Part shown: piece after piece, positions 49,489 through 63,635 of the stretch | Position numbering within the stretch: the stretch's first letter is position 1 | Layout of the letters: every line of letters begins with the position of its first letter | Assembly (NCBI RefSeq): GCF_014084125.1 | Contig: NZ_CP048405.1 | Coordinates: forward strand, 6,448,001-6,512,000 | Source: Streptacidiphilus sp. PB12-B1b | GTDB taxonomy: Bacteria > Actinomycetota > Actinomycetes > Streptomycetales > Streptomycetaceae | DNA length: 64,000 nt | Reading direction: 5' to 3' | Position numbers and translations under genes: made by a program | Notes under the pieces: model-generated | What the model saw: the letters and a program-made list of their open reading frames with translations, nothing else | Told to the model about the DNA's origin: nothing | The model's database searches: none

Positions 49489-50877
<1,389 letters not shown>

Positions 50878-50898
50878 CGAAACACACCCTGATCTGCG

Positions 50899-51148: not shown

Positions 51149-54100
51149 CTACCGGGTGCGCCGGGTGGTGACGAGCTGGCCGTCGTGGAGGTGGTGGTCG
51201 AGGTCGAGTCCGCTGTCGAGCATCGCGAGGACGTCAAGGTGACGGTCAGCTGGCACGGTCGCCACCCGGCGCCGGTCACGGTGGACGCGGATGGTCGGGT
51301 TGCTCTCGCTGGGCGGTGCGACGGAGACCGGCCCGGCGGGTGTCCCCGGTACGAGCCGAGTCAGCGGGGTGGCCGCGGCACGGTCGTCGAGTAGCCGGTT
51401 GATGAGATCGGAGGGAGTACGGACGTAGTCGAGGAGGTCTTGGACCTCGAACTCGCCCGCGCTGTAGTGCTCCGTCCAGCCGTCGATGTGGTGCTGGGCG
51501 GTCCACTGACGCAGCGCGCTCGACCGGTACCCGAGGCGGGCGGCGTCACGGCCGAGGAGGTGGGCGATGCGACGGGAGGTGATACCGGAGGTGAGCAGGG
51601 TCAGCGCCTGCTCGGTGTCGACGCCGTGGCGGATGTGCCAGGCAGTGTGCGTGTTCAGCCTCGGGGCGATGGGGGAGAGTGCAGGGCTGGTGTTGACCAG
51701 GTTGATCAGGGCGCCGACAGTCCAGCTCAGGGCGTGACCGAAGGCGGTGCTGATGTTACGTACTGCCTGATCGAGCGCCCACCCGGTGGGGATAGCGGGT
51801 TGCCAGGAGCGGGCGAGATCAGGGATGGGTGCGCCGGAGATCCACTCCCGGAGCGCGGGGGCAATCGGGACGGTCATCTCCGCGCCCCGAGTCTCCTTGT
51901 CCTTAAAGCTCCAGGTCTTGTTGACCTCTGGGAGTCTACTGAGGAGGCGATCGAAGACCTGGTGCTCAGTGAGGAAGTCGAGGGTGCGCTGCAGCGACCA
52001 TTCCTGCGGTTCGGCGAGTTGGTCCTCTCCCGTGATGTTGAGCCACGTGGCCAGGTAATCCGCGAGCCAGTCGAGTTGGCGAGCAGACCCCAGGCTGGTG
52101 CCAGTTCCAGCCCACCGGCCGGCTGGCGCAGGATCGGTGTCGTAGAACACGGTGACGACCTGGTTAGCGAGGGCGATCCACCGGTTGGCGGTCGGCCTGT
52201 TGCCGGTCTGAGACAGAGCGAACAGCGCGTACATGGAATCGAGGGAAGCACCCTGCGGCGCCGATGACGAAGCGTGCAGATGGAGGACGAGCCAGACGAA
52301 CGAGACGAAGTCCGCAGCGGTGCCGTCCGCCAGTGCGAAGATGCCGTCAGCGTTGTTGCGCAAGGTGTTCTCGGCGGCTGCGAGATCGGCCAGTGCCTCG
52401 TCGGTCAACAGTGTGGAGACGACACGCAGTTGCTCCGGGTCGGGGTTAAGGGCGTCGAACTCTGCGGGGCGGGGCGGGTAGGGGCGGGTCAGGAGGATCC
52501 ACCCCTCGCTTTCCCGGCCGGCCCGCCCAGCGCGGCCGATGGCATTGAGGAGCTCGGCGGGAGACAGGGCGCGCTGGCTGTCGTAAGCGAGCGGGTCACC
52601 GTCGACCTTGTGGTGCACGATGACGGTGCGCACTGGCAGGTTGACGCCGTCGGTGAGGGTGCTGGTGCTGGCGATCGCCAGGAGCTCGTCGCGGCGCAGC
52701 GCGCCCTCGACGGCGTGGAGGACGTCCTCGGGCAGGGCACCGTGGTGGTAGGCGACGCCGTGCCGGGTGCATCGCACCAGCGGGTGTTCCTCGCCGAGGG
52801 TGTCGGCAAGGTAGTCGGTGAGGACGGCGGCCTCGGGCCGCTCAGGCAGGCGCTCGGCGATGGCGAGCGCCGTGTCGCGGGCTGCCCGCCTGGTGCCGAC
52901 GACCATCAGGACGCTGCCGGCCGAGGTGAGCTCTGCGGCGCCGGCGGCGAAAACCTTGTAGTCGGCGATCCCGCCCGACAGGGCGGTCCTGGCCTTCCAC
53001 CGGCCGGGGTCACGGCCAGGGTAGCGCCGGGTGCCCACCTCGCCGGTGGTCAGCAGGGCGATGGTGGAGGAGGCGGTCGGCCGGACGGCGAGGAGGTTCT
53101 CGACCGGCACGGTGGCGATCACCTGCGAAGGGCGCTTCGCCGTCGCCGGCCGTTCCGCCAGCTCGGCCCGCTCCACCATCAGGTTCGGGTACATGAGGCC
53201 GTGCATCCGGCGAGGGCCCCGCCAGGTGTCGGTGAAGTAGACCTCCCGCTCGGGACGCTGCGGGTCGAGCCACGAGGCGATGTCGCCCTTGTTGCCGACC
53301 GCCGCGGACAGCAGCACCAGCCGGATGCCGCTGCGGACCTGCAGCAGCGCGAGCAGGCTCTCCAGCACGAAGCCGCGCCGCCCCTGGCTCAGGTGGTGGG
53401 CCTCGTCGACGACGACCAGCCCGACGCCCTCCAGCGCATCGCCGGTGTTGTTGCGGATCATGTGCATGAGCCGCTCAGGGGTGACGATCTCCACGTCCCC
53501 ACCGTCCGACTCGGCCGACGAGGCCCACCGGCCGAGCGGGAATTCCGGCTGCTCCGCGGCCAGACGCCGCCCTAGCACCCGCAGCCGGCCCCTCAGCGCC
53601 CCGCGCATCTCCCGCCCCAGGCTGCGCATCGGCGACACGTACACCACCCGCCCCGGACGCTGCGCCAGGTGCGAGCAGATCACCAGCTGGGCCATCAGTG
53701 TCTTGCCCGCGCTAGTCGGCACGCTGATCAGGCTGCGCGACGTCGCCGGGTCGAGCGGGTTACCGCGCTCCAGCTTCAGGAGCTGGCGCTGCGGCGGCCA
53801 GAGCGTCATCACCGGGGGCCTCGACAGCGCAAAGCTCCGCGCCACTGCCGGGGGGGTGCCCGGTGGGAGCAGCTGGTACAGGCTGCTGGCCGCCATCTCC
53901 CCACTCAACTGGAGCAGGTGCGCGGCGACCCACCGCGCCAGCCGGTCGCCCCGGCCGACCGTCTCCGTCATCACGTCCAGCAGCAGCCGCTGCGCGGCTA
54001 GCAGCTCATACTCCTCGCCGAAACTCAGGAACTGGTAGAGGTGGAAGATCGCCTCCACGACAGCCTCCGCCGGCCCGTACATGGTCCCTGCGAGGGACTC

Positions 54101-54643
54101 TCGGCGCATCACCGCCCGCACCCTGCGCAGCTGCCGCCGCCACACCTGCAGCGCCCGGCCCAGCTTCGGGCGGTCGAAGCCGAGGAAGACGACGCCGGCC
54201 TCCACCGCCAAGGTGCCGATGTGCAGGCGGAGCTCGCCGCTGATATCGACGAGGGCGCGGACCCGATGGTAGACGGCGGTGGCATTCGGGTCCTGCTCAC
54301 TGCGCCGGTACCCGGCCTGGGCGGCGAAGGCGATCTGGAGCCGCTCGGCTTCCGGTCGGCGTTCGTCGCCCAGCGCAAGGTCCATCAGGTGCGCGCTGGC
54401 GGCGAAAGCCCGCCGCACGCGCACCGCGTCATAGCCGGGAGTCTCCGGGTCGAGCGCGGCGAGCCCGTGCAGGTACCACGCTGTGGCGAGGGTCTCGTCC
54501 CGGATCTCCCGCTCACCGCGGAACGCTGCGACCTCCAACTCGGTCATCGCCGCGAGCAGGTCTTGGGCGCTGGGCAGCACCCCGCCCACCCGGTACTCGC
54601 CGAGCGCCGAGGCGAGCACCTCCGGGTCTAGAGTGCGCTCCAC
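51149..54643 (-). CDS. Ski2-like SF2 helicase of a Hachiman-like defence pair (HamB-like)
   Basis: 1164 aa. A helical N-terminal domain of about 280 residues has no recognised fold. The helicase core has Q-motif region LWPPQRQLL, Walker A VPTSAGKT (308-315), DEAH (413-416), motif III LLSAAVGNKGD, motif V ASTSTLTDGVNLPVRTVIVHH and motif VI NAIGRAGRAGRE. A 400-residue helical C-terminus follows. The motif set is that of Ski2/Hel308-like helicases, as reported for HamB. GTG 54643 (GAGGGGG upstream) overlaps the end of the upstream gene by 16 bases, so the two are coupled and probably form a complex. The HamB assignment is inference from architecture and partner. Confidence 0.8.
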   Translation of the reverse strand: MERTLDPEVLASALGEYRVGGVLPSAQDLLAAMTELEVAAFRGEREIRDETLATAWYLHGLAALDPETPGYDAVRVRRAFAASAHLMDLALGDERRPEAERLQIAFAAQAGYRRSEQDPNATAVYHRVRALVDISGELRLHIGTLAVEAGVVFLGFDRPKLGRALQVWRRQLRRVRAVMRRESLAGTMYGPAEAVVEAIFHLYQFLSFGEEYELLAAQRLLLDVMTETVGRGDRLARWVAAHLLQLSGEMAASSLYQLLPPGTPPAVARSFALSRPPVMTLWPPQRQLLKLERGNPLDPATSRSLISVPTSAGKTLMAQLVICSHLAQRPGRVVYVSPMRSLGREMRGALRGRLRVLGRRLAAEQPEFPLGRWASSAESDGGDVEIVTPERLMHMIRNNTGDALEGVGLVVVDEAHHLSQGRRGFVLESLLALLQVRSGIRLVLLSAAVGNKGDIASWLDPQRPEREVYFTDTWRGPRRMHGLMYPNLMVERAELAERPATAKRPSQVIATVPVENLLAVRPTASSTIALLTTGEVGTRRYPGRDPGRWKARTALSGGIADYKVFAAGAAELTSAGSVLMVVGTRRAARDTALAIAERLPERPEAAVLTDYLADTLGEEHPLVRCTRHGVAYHHGALPEDVLHAVEGALRRDELLAIASTSTLTDGVNLPVRTVIVHHKVDGDPLAYDSQRALSPAELLNAIGRAGRAGRESEGWILLTRPYPPRPAEFDALNPDPEQLRVVSTLLTDEALADLAAAENTLRNNADGIFALADGTAADFVSFVWLVLHLHASSSAPQGASLDSMYALFALSQTGNRPTANRWIALANQVVTVFYDTDPAPAGRWAGTGTSLGSARQLDWLADYLATWLNITGEDQLAEPQEWSLQRTLDFLTEHQVFDRLLSRLPEVNKTWSFKDKETRGAEMTVPIAPALREWISGAPIPDLARSWQPAIPTGWALDQAVRNISTAFGHALSWTVGALINLVNTSPALSPIAPRLNTHTAWHIRHGVDTEQALTLLTSGITSRRIAHLLGRDAARLGYRSSALRQWTAQHHIDGWTEHYSAGEFEVQDLLDYVRTPSDLINRLLDDRAAATPLTRLVPGTPAGPVSVAPPSESNPTIRVHRDRRRVATVPADRHLDVLAMLDSGLDLDHHLHDGQLVTTRRTR

Positions 54644-55500
54644 ACGTACCCCCTCACGGTCTTCGCGAAGTCCTCAAGATCGTCGATCGCCACCACCATT
54701 CCCTGCAGTGCCCCATCGTGGGTGTGGGTGGTGAAGTGCTTGTGAGAGCGGTCGAAGGCCGTGGCGGGGGTATCCGCGGCGTCGAGAGCCACGCTGACAC
54801 CGCCGTTGCTCGACTCCTTCGCCTCCACCCACTGCCGCGCCATCGAACTGACGAACCCCCGGGTGTCGGGGGCGAGCTCCCGCCCACCCCACGAGATCTG
54901 CCCCAGGTACCGCGCTCCCCAGTCATTCAACTGCTGCCACGCTTTGCGGATCGTGTCGCTCGGCTTCGTCGTCTCGGCGGTGAACTTCTTCATCTCCCAC
55001 AATCGGAAGACGAACCCCAGATCGCTGCCGGGCACACGGTGGATCAGCAGCCCGTCGGGACCGCTGTCGGTCACCGTTGACGAGGGCGGGTCCAGAATCT
55101 CCACGCTGCGCCCCGGCTCGGGGGCAAGGTCGCGGGTCGAGAGGTACCAGAGCCACTCCCCCACGTAGCCGGTAACACCAGTGGGGTCGTTGGCCTCGAA
55201 CACCGGACCGGCGTACAAGAGGACGTGCGCGTGATCGAGGCCAGCCAGTGGGGTGCCGACCAGGACGCTGTCGCGCCAGAGCTGATAGGCGCGATTATCA
55301 AGATCGGTGCGGGCCCGCATGATCTCGTCGGCGACGATCCATGCTGCTGCAGCGCGGTCCTCGGGCTCCTGCCCGATGGTCTCCACCAAGTCCCACGGGC
55401 AAACCTGTGTGAGGCCGCGACCCTCCCGCCGGGTGAGGTCCACAAGGCGGCCGCCAGCGGCTTGGGCGCGCTCCATCGCCTTGAGCGCAGGTACCGACAC
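54628..55500 (-). CDS. PD-(D/E)XK-like protein, HamA-like partner of the helicase
   Basis: 290 aa. The first 100 residues are mixed and end in LLYAGPVFEAND. After the GE of YVGEWLWYL (114-115) comes a nuclease-like core: SGPDGLLIHRV (Asp149) and FRLWEMKKFTAE (Glu169, Lys171), the D...ExK layout of PD-(D/E)XK enzymes. DUF1837/HamA proteins of Hachiman systems share a GE segment, D and E-x-K order and a place next to a Ski2-like helicase. The C-terminal part ends MVVAIDDLEDFAKTVRGYVWSAL. GTG 55500 with GGAGG upstream. It could also be an unrelated nuclease in a similar operon. Confidence 0.65.
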   Translation of the reverse strand: MSVPALKAMERAQAAGGRLVDLTRREGRGLTQVCPWDLVETIGQEPEDRAAAAWIVADEIMRARTDLDNRAYQLWRDSVLVGTPLAGLDHAHVLLYAGPVFEANDPTGVTGYVGEWLWYLSTRDLAPEPGRSVEILDPPSSTVTDSGPDGLLIHRVPGSDLGFVFRLWEMKKFTAETTKPSDTIRKAWQQLNDWGARYLGQISWGGRELAPDTRGFVSSMARQWVEAKESSNGGVSVALDAADTPATAFDRSHKHFTTHTHDGALQGMVVAIDDLEDFAKTVRGYVWSAL

Positions 55501-55949: not shown

Positions 55950-57863
55950 ATGGCAGGAATTCCCGAAGGGTCCCGCGACCGCCGTCGTTCGTTCAACGGT
56001 GAAGAGCGCATCGCTCTGTTCCTCGCCGCAGACGGACGGTGCGCCGAATGCGGCCAGGAGCTGGAACCCGGATGGCACGGCGACCACATCGAACCTTGGT
56101 CCGAAGGCGGCCCGACCGATGTGATCAACGGACGCGCGACCTGCCCGAGCTGCAACTTGAAGAAGGGAAACAGGTCCATGGCGATCTCCTCCGGTCTGCG
56201 AAGCTGGCAGCAGGAAGCACGCGAGCGTTACCACTCTCGCAATGGCGGCGAGAACTCGAACTTCCTGGTCGTCGCCACCCCAGGGGCCGGAAAGACCACC
56301 TTCGCGCTGACCATCGCCGAGGACCTGATCAGCCGCGGCACCATCAGCAACATCGTGGTCGTCGCCCCCACCAAGCACCTGCGCCGCCAGTGGGCCGAGG
56401 CTGGGGCGCGGGTGGGCATCAAGCTCGATCACCTCTTCGAGAACAAGAACGGCGCGGTCGGTTCCGACTTCGACGGTGTCGTGGCCACATACCAGGCCAT
56501 CGCATCCGCCCCGCTGCTGTGGAAGCGCCTGTGCGCCAGCAAGCGCACCCTCGTGATCTTCGATGAGATCCACCATGCCGGCGACGGTGACGGCCTGGTC
56601 TGGGGCGATGCCCTCAAGGATTCCTTCGAGAGCGCCACACGGCGGCTACTGCTTTCAGGAACGCCGTTCCGCACCGACGGCAAGCCGCTCCCGTTCGTCG
56701 CGTATGACGAGACCCGCCGGGCCGTGCCCAGCTATAGCTATGACTACGGCATGGCACTGGCCGACGGCGGCGTGGTGCGTCCGGCCGTGTTCCCGGCCTG
56801 GGACGGAAAGTCGAAGTGGCGCAGGTCGGGGCAACTGGCCGTCACCGAGGTCGACCTGAGCGATGCTGACAAGGACGAGATTCCCCCGGCGTTGAAGGCC
56901 GCCCTCGACCCGACCGGCGCCTGGATTCCGTCCGTCCTCCAGGAGGCACATGAAGCCCTCCTGCGGATGCGGATCGACACCCCCGACGCAGGTGGCCTGG
57001 TGATCGCAAGCGACCAGTTCGCCGCCACCGCGTACGCAGCGATCCTCGAACGGATCGCCGGAGTTCAGGTCCCGGTCGCCATCTCGGACGAGCCGAACGC
57101 CTCCGACATCATCAAGAACTTCGCCAGGGGTAATGCCCCCTGGATCGTCGCCGTACAGATGATCGCCGAAGGCGTCGACATCCCACGCCTGGGTGTCGGC
57201 GTCTACGCCTCCCGGGTTCGCACCAAGATGTTCTTCACCCAGGTCGTGGGACGCTTCGTGCGCATGCGCGGCGACGAAGACCCCACGACGGCTCGGCTGT
57301 TCATCCCTTCCATAGCTGTCCTCCTGGCTTTCGCGCAGGACATCGAGAAGATGGTGGATGCGGTGCTCGCCGAGGAGGAGAAGCAGATCCGCGAGATGCA
57401 GGACACCCATGGCCAGGGCGACACGCTCATCCCGGCCTACGAAACGGTGAGCTCATCTGTCGCAACCCACCACGTGACGATCGCCGGGGGTTCCCAGTTC
57501 ACCCCCGAACAGCTGGACTTCGCCCAGCGCACCATGGCGATGGCCGGGCCGACGTCGCCCTCAGTGACCGCAGAGTGGGTGGCGGGCCTGCTCACATCGG
57601 CCCAGCTCCTCAACGGAAATGCCCTCCCCGGCCAGCGCGCAGACACCGATGTTGAACCACTCGGTGACCAAAAGAAGTCTCTGCGCAGGCTCATCCACCG
57701 CAAGGCTGGCCGACTTTCGGCACTCACCAACCGCCCCTACGAACACATCAACGGGGAGCTGAACCAGTCCCTCGGCAACGTCGTCAAGACCGCGACGATG
57801 GAGCAGCTTCAGAAGCGCCTGGCGATGCTCGACGCCGCGATCAAGGAGGCACAGAAGAAGTGA
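55950..57863 (+). CDS. HNH nuclease-SF2 helicase fusion
   Basis: 637 aa. Residues 25-75 are a complete HNH domain: CAEC (31-34), GDHIEPWSEGG (Asp45, His46), Asn60, CPSC (65-68) and NLKKG. A ResIII/DEAD-like helicase follows: QQEARERY, Walker A TPGAGKTT (110-117), Walker B DEIHH (205-209), LLLSGTPFRTD, and motif VI QVVGRFVRMRGDE. The C-terminal 200 residues are helical with a long charged helix (DIEKMVDAVLAEEEKQIREMQ). No ribosome site; -10-like TACTCT 8 bases before the ATG. Its stop overlaps the next start (GTGA). A nuclease fused to a translocase plus a coupled DNA-binding partner suggests DNA restriction or phage defence; specificity unknown. Confidence 0.8.
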   Translation: MAGIPEGSRDRRRSFNGEERIALFLAADGRCAECGQELEPGWHGDHIEPWSEGGPTDVINGRATCPSCNLKKGNRSMAISSGLRSWQQEARERYHSRNGGENSNFLVVATPGAGKTTFALTIAEDLISRGTISNIVVVAPTKHLRRQWAEAGARVGIKLDHLFENKNGAVGSDFDGVVATYQAIASAPLLWKRLCASKRTLVIFDEIHHAGDGDGLVWGDALKDSFESATRRLLLSGTPFRTDGKPLPFVAYDETRRAVPSYSYDYGMALADGGVVRPAVFPAWDGKSKWRRSGQLAVTEVDLSDADKDEIPPALKAALDPTGAWIPSVLQEAHEALLRMRIDTPDAGGLVIASDQFAATAYAAILERIAGVQVPVAISDEPNASDIIKNFARGNAPWIVAVQMIAEGVDIPRLGVGVYASRVRTKMFFTQVVGRFVRMRGDEDPTTARLFIPSIAVLLAFAQDIEKMVDAVLAEEEKQIREMQDTHGQGDTLIPAYETVSSSVATHHVTIAGGSQFTPEQLDFAQRTMAMAGPTSPSVTAEWVAGLLTSAQLLNGNALPGQRADTDVEPLGDQKKSLRRLIHRKAGRLSALTNRPYEHINGELNQSLGNVVKTATMEQLQKRLAMLDAAIKEAQKK

Positions 57864-59311
57864 ACGCAACGGAGAACGCCAACGGAAACGCGGTGCTGGT
57901 CAACGCGCTCAGCTCGTCTATGCGGTCCACCATGAACGGCATGGAGTCTGTCCCAGGCTTGGTTCGGCAGGTGATCGAAGAAGATTCCTGGCGCAATTTC
58001 ACTACCCCGCGCGGCGAGCAGGTGACGCATGCGTCCTTCGAGTCGTTCGTCACCGCGAAGCCCACCAAGGGCCTGGGGTACAGCGTCGCAGAGCTGATGC
58101 GCCTGGTCGCCGACGACACCGAGACCGCGCACCTGGTAGCCAACCTACTCGGGCGCCCGGTAGCCGAGTTCCAGCAGGCCGAGAAGAACGTCTGGAATGA
58201 GCCGGCAGAGCGCGCATCGGGTGTGCTGCCCTCGCAGGATCCGCTCTGGCGCGACCCTTCTGACGACCCGGTGGCCCTCGCACAGAGTGACGAGCCCGAC
58301 CTCGATCTCGCCGACCCCGTTGACCGCGACGCCTTCGAGCTGCGGTCAGTGGGTCGGTCCGGCAGCTGGGTCTGGGCGCTCAAAGTCGCCCGGAACATCA
58401 TCAAGAGCAAGCCAGGGTCGCTTTCCGAGCAAGATCGTCGCGAACGCGATGATCTTGGGAAAGTCTCCCCCACGGAGTTCGGCCGCCGGATCGGCTGGAG
58501 CACCGATCGCGTGATGCGGTACTACCGGGCGTGGGAGAAGGGAATCGAGAGGCATGGTCTCCCTGCCTTCGACCAGCTCAAGCCCGGCATGCACGTGCCG
58601 TTGCCCGCCGCCAAGACCTGGGCGGCTTGCTTCGTCCCGGGCCGCGTCAACTCCGAGCGCGCCGAATCTTTGGAGACCGCTGCGGTAGAAGCAGGGCTGA
58701 GCATGGGGCAGGTGGTGAACGCGGCCAAGAGCCCAGGTGCCATGAAGGCTGCAATCATCGCCGACACCAGCACAGCCGAGGCGGCGTACTCAGCACTCCT
58801 GGAGCGCTCACGCAGCGACGGCAATCTGCGGGCCACGATGGCGCGCACGATTGCCCACGACCCTGTCTTCCGCAAGGAGACGGCCGTCGAGTCCAGGAAG
58901 GCGGAGCGTGCCGAGTACGTGCGGCACGTCGTCGACACCGGGCAGGTGAAGAGTGCAGCCGGTCAGGTGCTCGATCTTCCCAAGCAGGCGAAGGACACAG
59001 CCAGCAAGCTGTTGGCCGTGGTAGAAGACCCCCACGCCACATCAGAAGAGGTTGCAGAGGCTTACGAGGCCGTTCAGGGGATCGCTGCTGAGGTGGTCAA
59101 GGCAGATCCGGAGATTCAGACCCGCGAGCAGCGGACCAGGTTCTCCAAGGCGCTGAGTAGCACTGCGAAGAGCATTGAGGCGATCGATCCTGACGACCTC
59201 ATCGCCGTCGCGGATGACGATCTCCGCGAGAAGCTGGCTGGTCTCCAAAAGCAGGTCAACGAACTGGCCGCGCTGATCGTCAATCCGACGGCGCATCTGC
59301 GTGCCGTATAG
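57860..59311 (+). CDS. unrecognised HTH protein coupled to the HNH-helicase
   Basis: 483 aa, GTG 57860 overlapping the helicase stop by four bases. Three parts are visible. Residues 28-110 are a compact region (VPGLVRQVIEEDSWRNF...FVTAKPTKGLGYSVAELMRLVADD). Residues 160-250 hold a helix-turn-helix (KVSPTEFGRRIGWSTDRVMRYYRAWEKG, 201-228). From 260 to the end the chain is mostly helical, with coiled-coil-like segments rich in Ala, Glu and Lys. No catalytic motif seen. A ParB- or replication-initiation-like DNA binder is possible, but a recognition subunit for the helicase-nuclease fits the coupling better. A terminator follows 55 bases downstream. Confidence 0.7.
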   Translation: MNATENANGNAVLVNALSSSMRSTMNGMESVPGLVRQVIEEDSWRNFTTPRGEQVTHASFESFVTAKPTKGLGYSVAELMRLVADDTETAHLVANLLGRPVAEFQQAEKNVWNEPAERASGVLPSQDPLWRDPSDDPVALAQSDEPDLDLADPVDRDAFELRSVGRSGSWVWALKVARNIIKSKPGSLSEQDRRERDDLGKVSPTEFGRRIGWSTDRVMRYYRAWEKGIERHGLPAFDQLKPGMHVPLPAAKTWAACFVPGRVNSERAESLETAAVEAGLSMGQVVNAAKSPGAMKAAIIADTSTAEAAYSALLERSRSDGNLRATMARTIAHDPVFRKETAVESRKAERAEYVRHVVDTGQVKSAAGQVLDLPKQAKDTASKLLAVVEDPHATSEEVAEAYEAVQGIAAEVVKADPEIQTREQRTRFSKALSSTAKSIEAIDPDDLIAVADDDLREKLAGLQKQVNELAALIVNPTAHLRAV

Positions 59312-59366
59312 GACACCCCGGCAAGCGCCGCCGTGGGTCTTGTTGCGACCTGGACGATGAGATTGA

Positions 59367-59398
59367 GCACAGGCCCCCGCTCCGGTCGGGGCCTGTGC
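59367..59398 (+). terminator. terminator of the HNH-helicase/HTH operon
   Basis: Perfect 11-bp stem GCACAGGCCCC (59367-59377) with GGGGCCTGTGC (59388-59398), 10-base loop. 55 bases past the stop at 59311. Confidence 0.85.
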
Positions 59399-59490
59399 CG
59401 TTCCGGGCGCTGGCGTGCTTCTGCGGATCCGGAATATCGCGCGGCTCTTCTTGATTGGGTTCCCCGAACGATCACGGGGAGGGAATGACG

Positions 59491-59733: not shown

Positions 59734-59794
59734 TGCTGCCCGTGATGTCCGTCTGGGTCTGTGACTTGGGCGTCGCGGGCTCGTTTACCGACCG
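59715..59794. repeat. 12-bp direct repeats at the left end of the recombinase element
   Basis: GTTTACCGACCG at 59715-59726 and again at 59783-59794, 68 bases apart. The first copy begins exactly where the truncated nuclease-like gene loses its family sequence, so these look like recombinase binding or end repeats. No further copy was noticed in the window. Confidence 0.6.
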
Positions 59795-59811
59795 TGTCCG
59801 GAGCGCCCGTC

Positions 59812-61023
59812 ATGTTCCGGAGTCGGTACGGAGGACGAGTGGCAGGGCGAGTGGTGGTCGGGGACCTGAGGGTTCAGCAGATCGAGCGGAAGGACGGGCG
59901 GCGGTCGTGGACGATCGTGTGGCCCGAGGGCAGTCTTCACGCGGAGGCGGACCGGTTCCTGCGCGTGCACGACGGGTCAGGGACGCAGAGGACCTACGCG
60001 TACTACCTGGTGGACCACCTGCGGTGGCTGGAGCGCGAGTGCCTGGCCTTCGAGAAGGTCGTGCTGCGAGACCTTGAGCGCTACATGGGCATCGTCGGCG
60101 CCGAGGTCCTCATGCCGCTCGGAGAGCCGTGGCGAACCGGCAAGCGCCCCTACGGTCGCTCGGCGCTGTCGACCGCGGCGGCCTGCCTGAAGGGCTTCTA
60201 CTTGCACCAGTCGTCCTTGGGCGTGAACGGGGAACTCGGCAAGAAGCTCGACACCTCGCGGCTGCCCACGCGCGCGGACCGGCGCCGCGCGTTCCTGGGG
60301 CACGTGAAGAACTCCCTGCCCACCAACCCGCTCGCGCCGACGCGGCCGCGCCGTCGGCACCCGAAGATGCTCCCCGACGGTGCACGGGACAAGCTCCTGG
60401 CGGTGGTGAACGCCGCCCGCGACCGGCTGGTGGTGACCTGGCTGGCCGACGGCGGCCTGCGGATCGGCGAGCTCTGCGGGCTGCACCTGGTGGACCTGCA
60501 CCTACGGGAGAACGCAGCCTGCGGGGAGTGCCGCGCCCCGCACGTCCACGTCTGCCACCGCCCCGGCAACCCGAACCGCGCCGAGGCAAAGACCAAGCTC
60601 CCCTGGCGCATCGACGGCAGCACAGTGACCGGCGGACTGATCAAGCGAGTCAGCCCGGCGATGGTGCACACCTATTTCGAGTACCTCACCGGCGGCGAGT
60701 ACCCGCGCGAAACCGCCGGGCACGGCATGCTCTTGATCCAGCTCCACGGCAAGAACTCGGGGCAGCCATGGGCGCCGGTCGGGGCCCGCCGGATGCTCGG
60801 CCGCGCCGGGAAGCGCGCCGGGCTCGGCGTCGTGAAGCCCCATGCCTTCCGCCACAACTTCACTTCGGCGGTGCTCGACGCGGCCGGTGGCAACCTGCTG
60901 ATCGCCCGGGACGCCGGTGGCTGGGCCTCGGCCGCGATGGTCGACGAGGTCTACGGGCATGTCGACATCCACGACCATGCCTTCGACGCCGCCCTGCGCA
61001 CGGTCTGGGGTGGCGCCCAGTGA
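59812..61023 (+). CDS. tyrosine recombinase, TnpA-like (first of triad)
   Basis: 403 aa. SAM-like N-terminal DNA-binding domain (SGTQRTYAYYLVDHLRWLERECLAF), then the catalytic domain with Arg in ADGGLRIGELCGLHLVDL, His/Arg in KPHAFRHNFTSAVLDAAGG, and Tyr in SAAMVDEVYGHVDIHDH. It has a small Cys/His insert (CGECRAPHVHVC) typical of this Tn554-type group. ATG 59812 has GGAG eight bases upstream; GTG 59839 (GGAGG upstream) is an alternative. The stop overlaps the next GTG by four bases. Confidence 0.87.
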   Translation: MFRSRYGGRVAGRVVVGDLRVQQIERKDGRRSWTIVWPEGSLHAEADRFLRVHDGSGTQRTYAYYLVDHLRWLERECLAFEKVVLRDLERYMGIVGAEVLMPLGEPWRTGKRPYGRSALSTAAACLKGFYLHQSSLGVNGELGKKLDTSRLPTRADRRRAFLGHVKNSLPTNPLAPTRPRRRHPKMLPDGARDKLLAVVNAARDRLVVTWLADGGLRIGELCGLHLVDLHLRENAACGECRAPHVHVCHRPGNPNRAEAKTKLPWRIDGSTVTGGLIKRVSPAMVHTYFEYLTGGEYPRETAGHGMLLIQLHGKNSGQPWAPVGARRMLGRAGKRAGLGVVKPHAFRHNFTSAVLDAAGGNLLIARDAGGWASAAMVDEVYGHVDIHDHAFDAALRTVWGGAQ

Positions 61024-63635
61024 CCGCGCCCTCCCTCCTTCCCCGGCAGGATGCCCGCACGCAACGGGACCGGCTGGAGGTGCTCACCGTGCTGATCAAC
61101 GGGCCCGAGTTCGACCCGGTACTGCGTGGCGGGGTCCTGAAGATCCCGCCGACCCACCCGGTTTATCCGTGGAGCTGCACGGTCCCCGACTGCGCACGGC
61201 CGCGCTGGCAGCGCTACGCGATGTGCTCGGTGCACGCCGGCCAGTGGCAGGAGGCAGAGGCCAGCGGGATGAGCCGGGCCCAGTTCCTGCGCGGGGCAGA
61301 GCCGCTGGCGGCGTCCGACGTCCCGGAGGAGATGATGTGCCGGATCTGCCCGCAGCGACCGGCCTTCAGCCTGCGCCTGGTGCTGTGCTTCCGCCACCGC
61401 AACCGGTGGCTGGGCTACCTGAAGCGGCACCCCGGCGCCAGCGAGGAAGACGGGCAGTTCGAGCGGTGGCTGGCCGATCAGCAGCCCTGCCCGGGCTACG
61501 GCGAGTGCCGCACGGAGGTGTGCGACGAACTGGCCTCCTCGCCGCTGGGGTTGTGCGGCGCGCACGAGCGCGGCTACATCCGGGCCGGGCGTCCGGGCGG
61601 AGCCCGGCTGCCCAAGAACTACTTCGCCACCTTCGAGCGGCAGGACCGACCTGTCCCCATCTCCATCGACGACCAGATCGCCTTCCGCTCCTGGTGCCGC
61701 GCGCAGTTGCCGGTGCACCGCACCGGGCGGATCTACCTGCGCGGCCTGCGGCCCCTACTGCGGGCCGAGTTCCAATGGGGCATGTATGCCCACCGCCTGC
61801 AGCCCACCGCCGTGTGGAACTTGACGTGGGTGCAGTCGCTCGCGGACGAGTGCCAGCGTCGCGACGTGGCGTCCCTGGCCGGCCTGGACCCCTCCGACTT
61901 CCACCGCGACTACCACCAGCGCATGGTCCAGGAGATGCAGGAAGCCCTGCGGAAGGTCTACTTCAGCCCCTCCGACACCCGCGATGCCGGCTACATCGAG
62001 ACCGAGCACTTCGGAGTGCGCTTCCCCCACCGCTCCAGCTACATCGACCTGACCTGCGTCTCCCAGCGGTGGCTGCGCGACCTGCTGTGGGACCATATCG
62101 CCGACGTGCTGCGCTCGCCCTCCTGCCCGCGCAGCGCCCAGCCGGTGGACTACCAACGCCGCGCGGGCGCCGAGCTGAGCGCGTTCCTGGAGGCCGAGGC
62201 ACCGGACGGCGGCCACGATCCCCGGGCACTGCGCGAGGAACACGCCCACCGCTTCGTCGCTGACCTGCGCAACCGCGAACGTCTCGGCCTTGCCTTCCGC
62301 GGCCAGGCCCGCCTGAACGGCAAGAAGTCGAAGGTCACCGAGAACATGCGTCGGCTGGTGCTCAACTACGGCCGGTCCGTGCTGCGCGGCGCGCTGGACA
62401 ACGGCAGCGCCGAGCGAATCGGCTTGAACCGCGCCTTCATCACCGCCATGCCGGTCGGCGGCCCGGGTACGCCCCGCAGCCGCAACCCCTTCCCCGACGA
62501 GGTGGCCCGCGCTCTCGCGGACGAGAGCAACCTGCGGCAGCTCGCCGAAGACCACGACCCGCACGACCGCGGCCTGCGGGATATGTGGGAGGCCATCATC
62601 ATCACCGGCCGGCGCGCCAACGAGGTCATCCAGCTCCACCTGGACTGCATCGGCCGCTACGGCGGGATGCCCGTGCTCTGGCACGACCAGACCAAGGTCG
62701 GCAACCTGAACGCGGCCATCCGCATCCCCGACCGGCTCATGGACCGCCTTGAAGAACGCCGCCGCAAGACCCTGGCCCGCTTCGCCGACCGCCACGCGGG
62801 CCGCGCCCCCACCCCCGCCGAGCGCGTCCACCTGGCCCTGTTCCCCACCGACATGCTCAACCCCGACGGCCATCGCGCCCTGTCCTACACCTGGTTCCAT
62901 ACCGGCCTGCGCAACTGGATCACCGACCTCGACCTGGGCGGCCATTACGTCGCCCACCAAGCCCGGCACACGCTGGCAACCCGGCTACTGCGGGCCGGGG
63001 CCAGCCTGACCCACATCCGCCGATATATGGGACAGGTCAGTGATCGAATGGCGGAGCATTACGTCCACCTGACCCAGTCCGACCTCGACGACGTACTCCA
63101 GCGCGTCTGGGTCGCCGGCCCCGGCACCGCCAACCCCGGCGAACTCCTGGCCGGGATCGCCGCACCACTCACCCGCGAGCAGGCCCAGGCCCTGGCGATC
63201 GACCTCTCGCGCCGCAGCACCCCGGCCGAGGGCGGGTTCTGCACCTTCCAGCCCGTCGTCGAGGGAGGCGCCTGCCCCTGGAACCTGGACTGCCACAACT
63301 GCGACAAGTTCGTCCTGTCGGGGGCCGACCTCCTCTACTGGCGTCGCAAGCGCGAACAGTGGCGGCTCCTGGCCGAGGGCGCCCCCGACGACGCCACCGC
63401 CGACTACCTCCACCGCTACTTCGAACCCACCGCCCGCGCCATCGACGGTCTGGAAAGCGCCCTGGCCGGCCTCGGCCTCCTCGACGATGCCCTCGCCCTG
63501 GACCTGCGCAAACCCCAGGACTACTTCCACCGCGTGTGGTCCACCGCCTTTCGCGCCACCGACCTCGCCGAGCCCGTCGGCGACGAACAGGCCCAGGCCG
63601 AAGACACCACCGACGAACAGGAGCAATGCGCGTGA
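61020..63635 (+). CDS. long tyrosine recombinase with zinc-knuckle N-terminus, TnpB-like
   Basis: 871 aa. The first 180 residues carry several C-x-C/C-x-x-H clusters (CTVPDCARPRWQRYAMCSVH, CRICPQRP...LCFRH, CPGYGECRTEVCDEL...LCGAH). The catalytic domain has Arg in IITGRRANEVIQLHLD, HQARH in GGHYVAHQARHTLATRLLRAGASLTHIRRYMG, and Tyr in AEHYVHLTQ. A C-terminal Cys cluster (GACPWNLDCHNCDKF) and helical tail follow. GTG 61020 overlaps the previous stop by GTGA. Probably works with the first recombinase in a synaptic complex. Confidence 0.87.
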   Translation: MTAPSLLPRQDARTQRDRLEVLTVLINGPEFDPVLRGGVLKIPPTHPVYPWSCTVPDCARPRWQRYAMCSVHAGQWQEAEASGMSRAQFLRGAEPLAASDVPEEMMCRICPQRPAFSLRLVLCFRHRNRWLGYLKRHPGASEEDGQFERWLADQQPCPGYGECRTEVCDELASSPLGLCGAHERGYIRAGRPGGARLPKNYFATFERQDRPVPISIDDQIAFRSWCRAQLPVHRTGRIYLRGLRPLLRAEFQWGMYAHRLQPTAVWNLTWVQSLADECQRRDVASLAGLDPSDFHRDYHQRMVQEMQEALRKVYFSPSDTRDAGYIETEHFGVRFPHRSSYIDLTCVSQRWLRDLLWDHIADVLRSPSCPRSAQPVDYQRRAGAELSAFLEAEAPDGGHDPRALREEHAHRFVADLRNRERLGLAFRGQARLNGKKSKVTENMRRLVLNYGRSVLRGALDNGSAERIGLNRAFITAMPVGGPGTPRSRNPFPDEVARALADESNLRQLAEDHDPHDRGLRDMWEAIIITGRRANEVIQLHLDCIGRYGGMPVLWHDQTKVGNLNAAIRIPDRLMDRLEERRRKTLARFADRHAGRAPTPAERVHLALFPTDMLNPDGHRALSYTWFHTGLRNWITDLDLGGHYVAHQARHTLATRLLRAGASLTHIRRYMGQVSDRMAEHYVHLTQSDLDDVLQRVWVAGPGTANPGELLAGIAAPLTREQAQALAIDLSRRSTPAEGGFCTFQPVVEGGACPWNLDCHNCDKFVLSGADLLYWRRKREQWRLLAEGAPDDATADYLHRYFEPTARAIDGLESALAGLGLLDDALALDLRKPQDYFHRVWSTAFRATDLAEPVGDEQAQAEDTTDEQEQCA

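Follow-up and report, generated by a model that had tools for sequence, protein, structure and literature searches.

A gene pair for an HNH-helicase fusion and a partner protein

We analysed a 64,000-nucleotide stretch of DNA from Streptacidiphilus sp. PB12-B1b (contig NZ_CP048405.1, positions 6,448,001 to 6,512,000; hereafter the window) that contains two overlapping forward-strand genes, one for a fusion of an HNH endonuclease domain with a superfamily 2 (SF2) helicase (P0001) and the other for a partner protein (P0002). The pair is conserved across tens of loci, more than expected by chance. An original prediction made from the letters of this DNA had proposed it as a candidate undescribed defence system, a view that our results support in part. 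Both open reading frames (ORFs) were confirmed where that prediction had placed them, as was the complete N-terminal HNH domain of the helicase, whose catalytic residues are kept (Table 1). The HNH domain is followed by a ResIII helicase domain (residues 83-241, Pfam E 2e-17), and the two genes share the four bases GTGA (57860-57863), which agrees with the overlap described earlier.

P0002 was said to belong to no known family, and our searches bear this out: it had no Pfam match at the curated cut-off and nothing at E 0.1 in PADLOC, NCBIfam or PHROGs. The best Pfam candidate, the polyvalent-protein domain LPD22, was rejected with 20.2 bits against a cut-off of 28.6, and partner profiles compared with solved structures gave nothing below E 0.2. 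The helix-turn-helix (HTH) label that P0002 had received is tentative; it comes from a weak match with a phage protein that carries an HTH annotation (E 5e-4). Of the terminator proposed 3' of the pair, a strong GC-rich hairpin stands (z -2.5 for the RNA fold of 59300-59420), but it has no T-run, and a terminator scan found no canonical terminator there.

Table 1. The gene pair, its parts and the surrounding features (window positions)
Feature	Position	Strand	Basis or remark
HNH endonuclease-SF2 (XPB/RadD-like) helicase fusion, 637 aa (P0001)	55950..57863	+	ORF, Pfam, conserved residues, XPB/RadD profile match
HNH domain, P0001 residues 31-75	56040..56174	+	Pfam PF01844, E 5e-12
Partner protein, 483 aa (P0002), GTG start	57860..59311	+	ORF; overlaps P0001 stop codon
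Partner N-domain, residues ~4-97	57869..58150	+	Profile E 8e-36 (window row included in model)
Partner long-type part (putative HTH and C-terminal part), residues ~150-483	58307..59308	+	37-45% identity to linear-plasmid class
GC-rich hairpin 3' of the pair, without T-run	59367..59398	+	Sequence, RNA fold
Left copy of the 66-bp direct repeat (sdaA 3' end)	50814..50879	+	Right copy at 139172-139237 in window numbering, past window end
HamB/PDC-M23B-like helicase, 1164 aa, neighbour outside the unit	51149..54643	-	HamB E 6e-55, PDC-M23B E 3e-59
290-aa partner of HamB-like gene, neighbour	54628..55500	-	phrog_37270 match; no PADLOC model matched
Tyrosine recombinase, 420 aa, context	59761..61023	+	Pfam
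Tyrosine recombinase, 871 aa, inside the element	61020..63635	+	Pfam; overlaps the 420-aa recombinase gene

Conserved active sites and association of the HNH domain with the partner

We aligned 36 rows of the helicase, 33 of which have the HNH region. The helicase residues K115, T116, D205, E206, Q431, G434, R435 and R438, which we take to belong to Walker A, Walker B and motif VI, are invariant in all 36 rows, and the HNH residues D45, H46, N60 and N69 are kept in 32 of the 33. The exception, L165, retains the four cysteines, has none of the D, H, N and N residues and shows no HNH domain by profile. All eight HNH residues (four cysteines plus D, H, N and N) are present in 27 rows. L138, L143, L151, L157 and L162 keep D, H, N and N and have lost all four zinc cysteines, so that L165 is their reverse case.

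To follow the pair in viruses, we scanned IMG/VR starting from an alignment of six HNH-helicases, using two patterns, one located in the HNH domain and the other in the helicase; the sample therefore leans to members with both. The scan kept 80 of 90 confirmed stretches and led to 79 loci, from which we left out nine truncated or fragmentary ones and a further 20 in which no ORF scored above 50 bits as a helicase. In the 50 that were counted, with HNH presence scored by profile, the partner is adjacent to 34 of 35 HNH-bearing full-length helicases and to 3 of 15 helicases without a recognisable HNH domain (L164-L166; absent in the other 12). After clustering at 90% (42 clusters) the partner accompanied 31 of 32 HNH-bearing helicases versus 1 of 10 without HNH (Fisher p 2e-7, kinship being corrected only by the clustering). 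The ORFs of the 34 viral pairs overlap by 4 to 109 bases when the first possible start codons are taken, and no long-type partner was found in the viral contigs by the scan.

Among 28 viral records checked, 11 matched phrog_2, presumably the terminase large subunit, a family that in a control also matched 11 of 14 cellular genomes. Four matched TerL_ATPase PF03354 (three above cut-off), 14 had one or the other, and 12 matched phrog_1 (integrase). Because of these terminase and integrase matches, many of the viral carriers are probably temperate phages.

The partner is modular

Comparison of the partners revealed two classes. Short partners (~190-250 aa) have only the first ~95 residues in common with P0002, and long partners (424-452 aa), found on linear plasmids, are weakly alike to P0002 over the N-domain and well alike over the remainder. 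The partner is thus modular: a ~95-aa N-domain travels with the helicase and the rest is exchangeable. At loci outside viral contigs that have a strong N-domain and an upstream region, the helicase lies upstream in 21 of 21, a count that includes the window and L115, both found through the helicase; at L104 a strong N-domain is accompanied by a helicase tail at the contig edge. Four further N-domain matches without a helicase are weak and mostly fragmentary. Since the N-domain model was made from 23 of these rows, their E-values are not independent of it.

Long C-terminal parts that lack the N-domain had no helicase upstream in any of 19 ORFs at 18 loci with at least 2 kb upstream covered, and at 28 others (L038-L065) none was present within 0.6-1.5 kb upstream. 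Stand-alone proteins of this kind, relatives of the P0002 C-terminal part (L038-L074, ~340-650 aa as ORFs), are found on chromosomes of the family, and on several complete chromosomes they lie 0.4-0.8 Mb from an end.

Across 43 pairs, identity in the helicase core correlated with identity in the N-domain (Mantel r 0.86), in the C-terminal part (r 0.73) and in the HNH domain (r 0.64); all three values are inflated by relatedness, and two of the segments compared, HNH and N, are short. Judged by its identities, the window partner is a hybrid of a phage-type N-domain and a plasmid-type C-terminal part. The window helicase core is 50-53% and the N-domain 42-51% identical to those of L132, L078, L117 and L116, and with the closest short-type partners (L078, L117, L132) the N-domain shares 47-51%. 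The C-terminal part has its closest plasmid-type relative at 45% identity and shares 11-25% with the short type. L172, whose HNH domain is 74% and helicase core 22% identical to the window, the core being plasmid-like by eye, looks like another exchange.

Spread over phages, plasmids and an integrative conjugative element

The pair was found in one of 50,697 phage records, Saccharomonospora phage PIS 136. P0002 matched 13 of 72,556 plasmid records, all from Streptomyces. The HNH-helicase is directly upstream in ten of them (L003-L008, L086, L087, L088 and L090) and absent in two (L009 and L089); in the remaining match, H11, which is another record of the SAP1 strain, the helicase match adjoins the partner match. 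An eleventh plasmid pair, from S. yangpuensis, was found through the helicase and short-partner searches. In the eight long-type plasmids the two genes do not overlap and lie 8-9 bp apart.

P0002 also matched 100 of 394 family genomes at E 1e-10, and the pair was verified in at least seven of the 394 (G000, G012, G094, G140, G236, G243 and G390), a minimum because some matches were examined without enough flank. The partner profile matched 2 of 396 genomes of a phylum sample, and the short partner 12 of 394 genomes of a class sample, several of them partially; both counts include the window genome.

Such spread over unrelated elements would also be expected of an autonomous homing or otherwise selfish nuclease unit without benefit to its carrier, HNH domains being frequent in homing endonucleases. 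We consider this highly improbable: at the annotated loci the pair is free-standing among varied neighbours and is not an insert within a gene, and the key helicase residues are invariant in every aligned row.

In the window the pair lies 5 kb from the left of two 66-bp direct repeats, the left one formed by the 3' end of a gene that we take to be sdaA and the right one identical to it in 65 of 66 positions. They delimit ~88 kb (G000:C1 6498814-6587237) in which Pfam identified a relaxase (PF03432), a coupling protein (PF12696/PF02534) and a tyrosine integrase (PF00589). In G006 and G011 the site is empty, the right flank following the sdaA end within ~300 bp, and in G012 the two are ~1.35 kb apart. 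Together, the repeats, the empty sites and the gene content identify the pair as cargo of a predicted ~88-kb integrative conjugative element (ICE).

The ICE copy, 5 kb from one att repeat, and several linear-plasmid copies close to an end would suit an early-expressed counter-defence or establishment factor that acts on host or resident DNA on entry, for example by removing a resident competitor, as would the occurrence of the unit in mobile elements of three kinds. Closeness to plasmid ends, assessed visually on the eight long-type plasmids, is not clearly above chance, and L006 and L090 are far from a plasmid end; we regard such a role as improbable.

Genes surrounding the pair

The island in which the pair had been said to sit is this ICE, with its direct repeats and defence-type genes. 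HsdR and HsdM of a type I restriction system and a second N6 methylase are encoded between the repeats, and defence-type genes lie close to both ends. The neighbouring divergent genes, described earlier as a defence pair, are a possible Hachiman-type pair: the helicase matches HamB and PDC-M23B, and the 290-aa protein encoded with it has no match among the PADLOC models.

We then compared 138 neighbours from 18 other pair loci on plasmids or in genomes, leaving out the window's own six neighbours and L075, with 128 neighbours from 16 control loci. No PADLOC family had more than two members at the pair loci: TnpB-like Cas12 models, Csx1 and PDC-S07 occurred twice each, and DrmD, ZorD, PDC-M41B and PDC-M30B once each. 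The control neighbours matched mainly PD-T4-6 models, with up to eight members each (among the 25 of 47 families listed). These control matches are probably ordinary kinases, so no enrichment of defence genes was seen, in a test that is weak. A general association with defence islands is therefore not borne out, and clear defence neighbours are present only in the window's ICE. Pfam families at the pair loci (25 of 70 listed) comprised regulators, NUDIX, GNAT, transposases and ParA-type ATPases, as well as two TrwC relaxases and three Replic_Relax proteins. The pair is thus general mobile-element cargo. It lies mainly on mobile elements and in some cases close to genes for replication, without being a fixed part of a replication or transfer module. 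In the original prediction, a location mainly in plasmid replication or conjugation modules would have spoken against a defence role; such a location is thus half borne out.

For viral neighbourhoods we searched PHROGs with 147 proteins of 80 to 1200 aa from 21 of 22 chosen loci (20 viral contigs plus PIS 136, with L129 left out). Among the 25 of 178 families listed were replication initiation (4 of 147), primase/helicase (3), RusA (2), two DnaB-like families (2 and 2) and two DnaC-like families (2 and 2), and integrases, regulators and endolysins also recurred. DnaB_C scored above cut-off in 4 of the 28 viral records.

Helicase relatives and a possible role in processing the element's own DNA

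By profile, the closest solved structures to the P0001 helicase are XPBII (E 3e-21) and RadD (E 1e-17; profile positions 73 to 427-428). P0001 missed the NCBIfam equivalog cut-offs of XPB (24.8 bits versus 610) and RadD (23.2 versus 720), and phrog_16, a family of phage DNA helicases, matches its residues 82-485 (E 3e-34). SftH, considered as an identity for the core, was dropped; it appears in papers on Lhr and YprA-type helicases. An HNH-less chromosomal homologue of P0001 (e.g., L031) is a core gene of the genus, found in 14 of 14 genomes, with 42-49% identity over the matched part; in G013 it is shorter and broken.

These relatives leave room for another role, possible if somewhat doubtful, in which the unit would be a DNA-processing machine of its element: motor and HNH domain would open and cut branched replication or recombination intermediates, and the partner would guide them to the element's own sites. 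XPB-Bax1 is described as a helicase-nuclease for DNA repair (PMC7293015), the replication families and RusA recur among the viral neighbours, and in PIS 136 the pair shares one half of the genome with the genes annotated for DNA metabolism. The same phage nevertheless has a DnaB and a DNA polymerase III alpha of its own among its annotated genes, the unit is sporadic, as its single phage record illustrates, and its carriers differ greatly in replication mode. Moreover, exchange of the partner's C-terminal part would be unexpected for a fixed function at the element's own origin.

Comparison with known systems

No named defence system in PADLOC 2.0.0 (2023), Pfam, NCBIfam or PHROGs matched both proteins, so in these libraries the unit is as unnamed as originally predicted. 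PADLOC matches of P0001 were limited to helicase parts or, weakly, to the HNH part, the best being PbeA (70 bits, E 3e-20), and the phosphorothioation-linked (Dnd) helicase TIGR04095 scored 52.5 bits where its cut-off is 600. The phrog_16 helicases and the HNH-less core helicase of the genus have the same helicase core as P0001 but no recognisable N-terminal HNH domain. The R subunits of type I and III restriction systems likewise unite a ResIII helicase and a nuclease in one protein and use a separate DNA-recognition subunit. Their usual nuclease is PD-(D/E)XK, whereas P0001 carries HNH. P0002 matched no methyltransferase in the four libraries, none is encoded directly beside the pair in the window, and the unit that recurs across loci is the two genes, which differs from a type I or III operon. 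The Hachiman (HamAB)-like neighbour in the same ICE is also a two-gene combination of helicase and partner, but it forms a separate divergent operon with another helicase family.

PbeA of PbeABCD is a defence protein that, like P0001, combines an SF2 helicase with a nuclease, but its nuclease is of the HKD type (PMC10853773) and that of P0001 is HNH. Archaeal XPB-Bax1 and bacterial RadD, the best solved-structure matches, are alike in combining motor and nuclease; the nuclease of XPB-Bax1 is a separate protein (PMC7293015), whereas in P0001 motor and HNH domain form a single chain, and P0002 matched no nuclease profile in the four libraries. Described arrangements include HKD-helicase, PD-(D/E)XK-helicase, wHTH-SAD-HNH, ParB-HNH and OLD-HNH, and none of those in the passages covered is an HNH-SF2 helicase with such a partner (PMC10853773, PMC12839542, PMC5512222). 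A phrase search yielded no publication on HNH-helicase fusions, and no title listed by the other literature searches names the pair, within a scope that excludes most subscription literature.

A tentative role in conflict with other DNA

Our preferred reading, held tentatively and with somewhat less than even confidence, is that the unit is a two-subunit nuclease-helicase of mobile elements whose partner recruits it to DNA and which is used in conflict with other DNA. The two proteins would form a complex. The partner N-domain is found with the helicase at nearly all loci and the two vary together, from which we infer that it docks on the SF2 motor. The C-terminal part, which is swapped among lineages, would recognise certain DNA sites or structures and bring the motor onto them, so the partner may choose the DNA; the XPB/RadD-like motor would then open the DNA or track along it, and the HNH domain would nick or cut it. 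The most likely use would be damage to competing phage or plasmid DNA, which would make the unit defence-like cargo of the ICE.

We counted in favour of this role the conservation of the catalytic residues, the association of HNH with the partner, the tie of the N-domain to the helicase in both occurrence and identity, the hybrid partner, the sporadic spread, and the occurrence of the Hachiman-like pair and type I restriction genes in the same ICE. Conflict with other DNA is placed narrowly ahead of processing of the element's own DNA because the unit is sporadic and sits on unrelated elements, because its C-terminal part is exchanged and because PIS 136 has a DnaB and a polymerase of its own.

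Several results weigh against a role in conflict or against the coupling on which it draws. The closest solved helicases are repair proteins, the PADLOC comparison gave no enrichment of defence genes, and a DnaB gene adjoins the pair in L120 and lies ~3 kb away in L148 and 8 kb away in L128 (in L161, DnaB_C is 20 kb from the pair; distances by hand). The genome locus L033 has an HNH-bearing helicase without a partner, as does the viral contig L171, and L164-L166 keep the partner without a recognisable HNH domain, L165 also lacking D, H, N and N. Finally, L218 (G882:C45) has a strong short-type N-domain with an integrase-like ORF alongside and no helicase. That contig is 3.1 kb long with 47% GC and also contains a small HTH-like ORF (integrase-like and HTH-like were judged by eye).

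A more specific form of the conflict role, which we consider rather unlikely, is a modular, retargetable nuclease-helicase in which a constant docking domain would couple a swappable DNA-recognition module to the HNH-SF2 effector. If so, elements would change the target of attack by exchanging the C-terminal part of the partner. One two-gene nuclease-helicase module, unnamed in the libraries searched, connects an ICE with Streptomyces plasmids and temperate phages. Should the partner direct the cutting, the natural exchanges of its domains would supply existing pairs from which the coding of specificity could be learned; should the unit be a recombination tool instead, it would stand beside the XPB/RadD-type motors as a relative with a fused HNH domain and a loader of its own.

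Other features of the element

At the right end of the ICE a 562-aa gene matches Pfam DUF6119. The repeat occurs more than once in some relatives (G002, G012 and G013), which makes the sdaA 3' end a likely integration hotspot.

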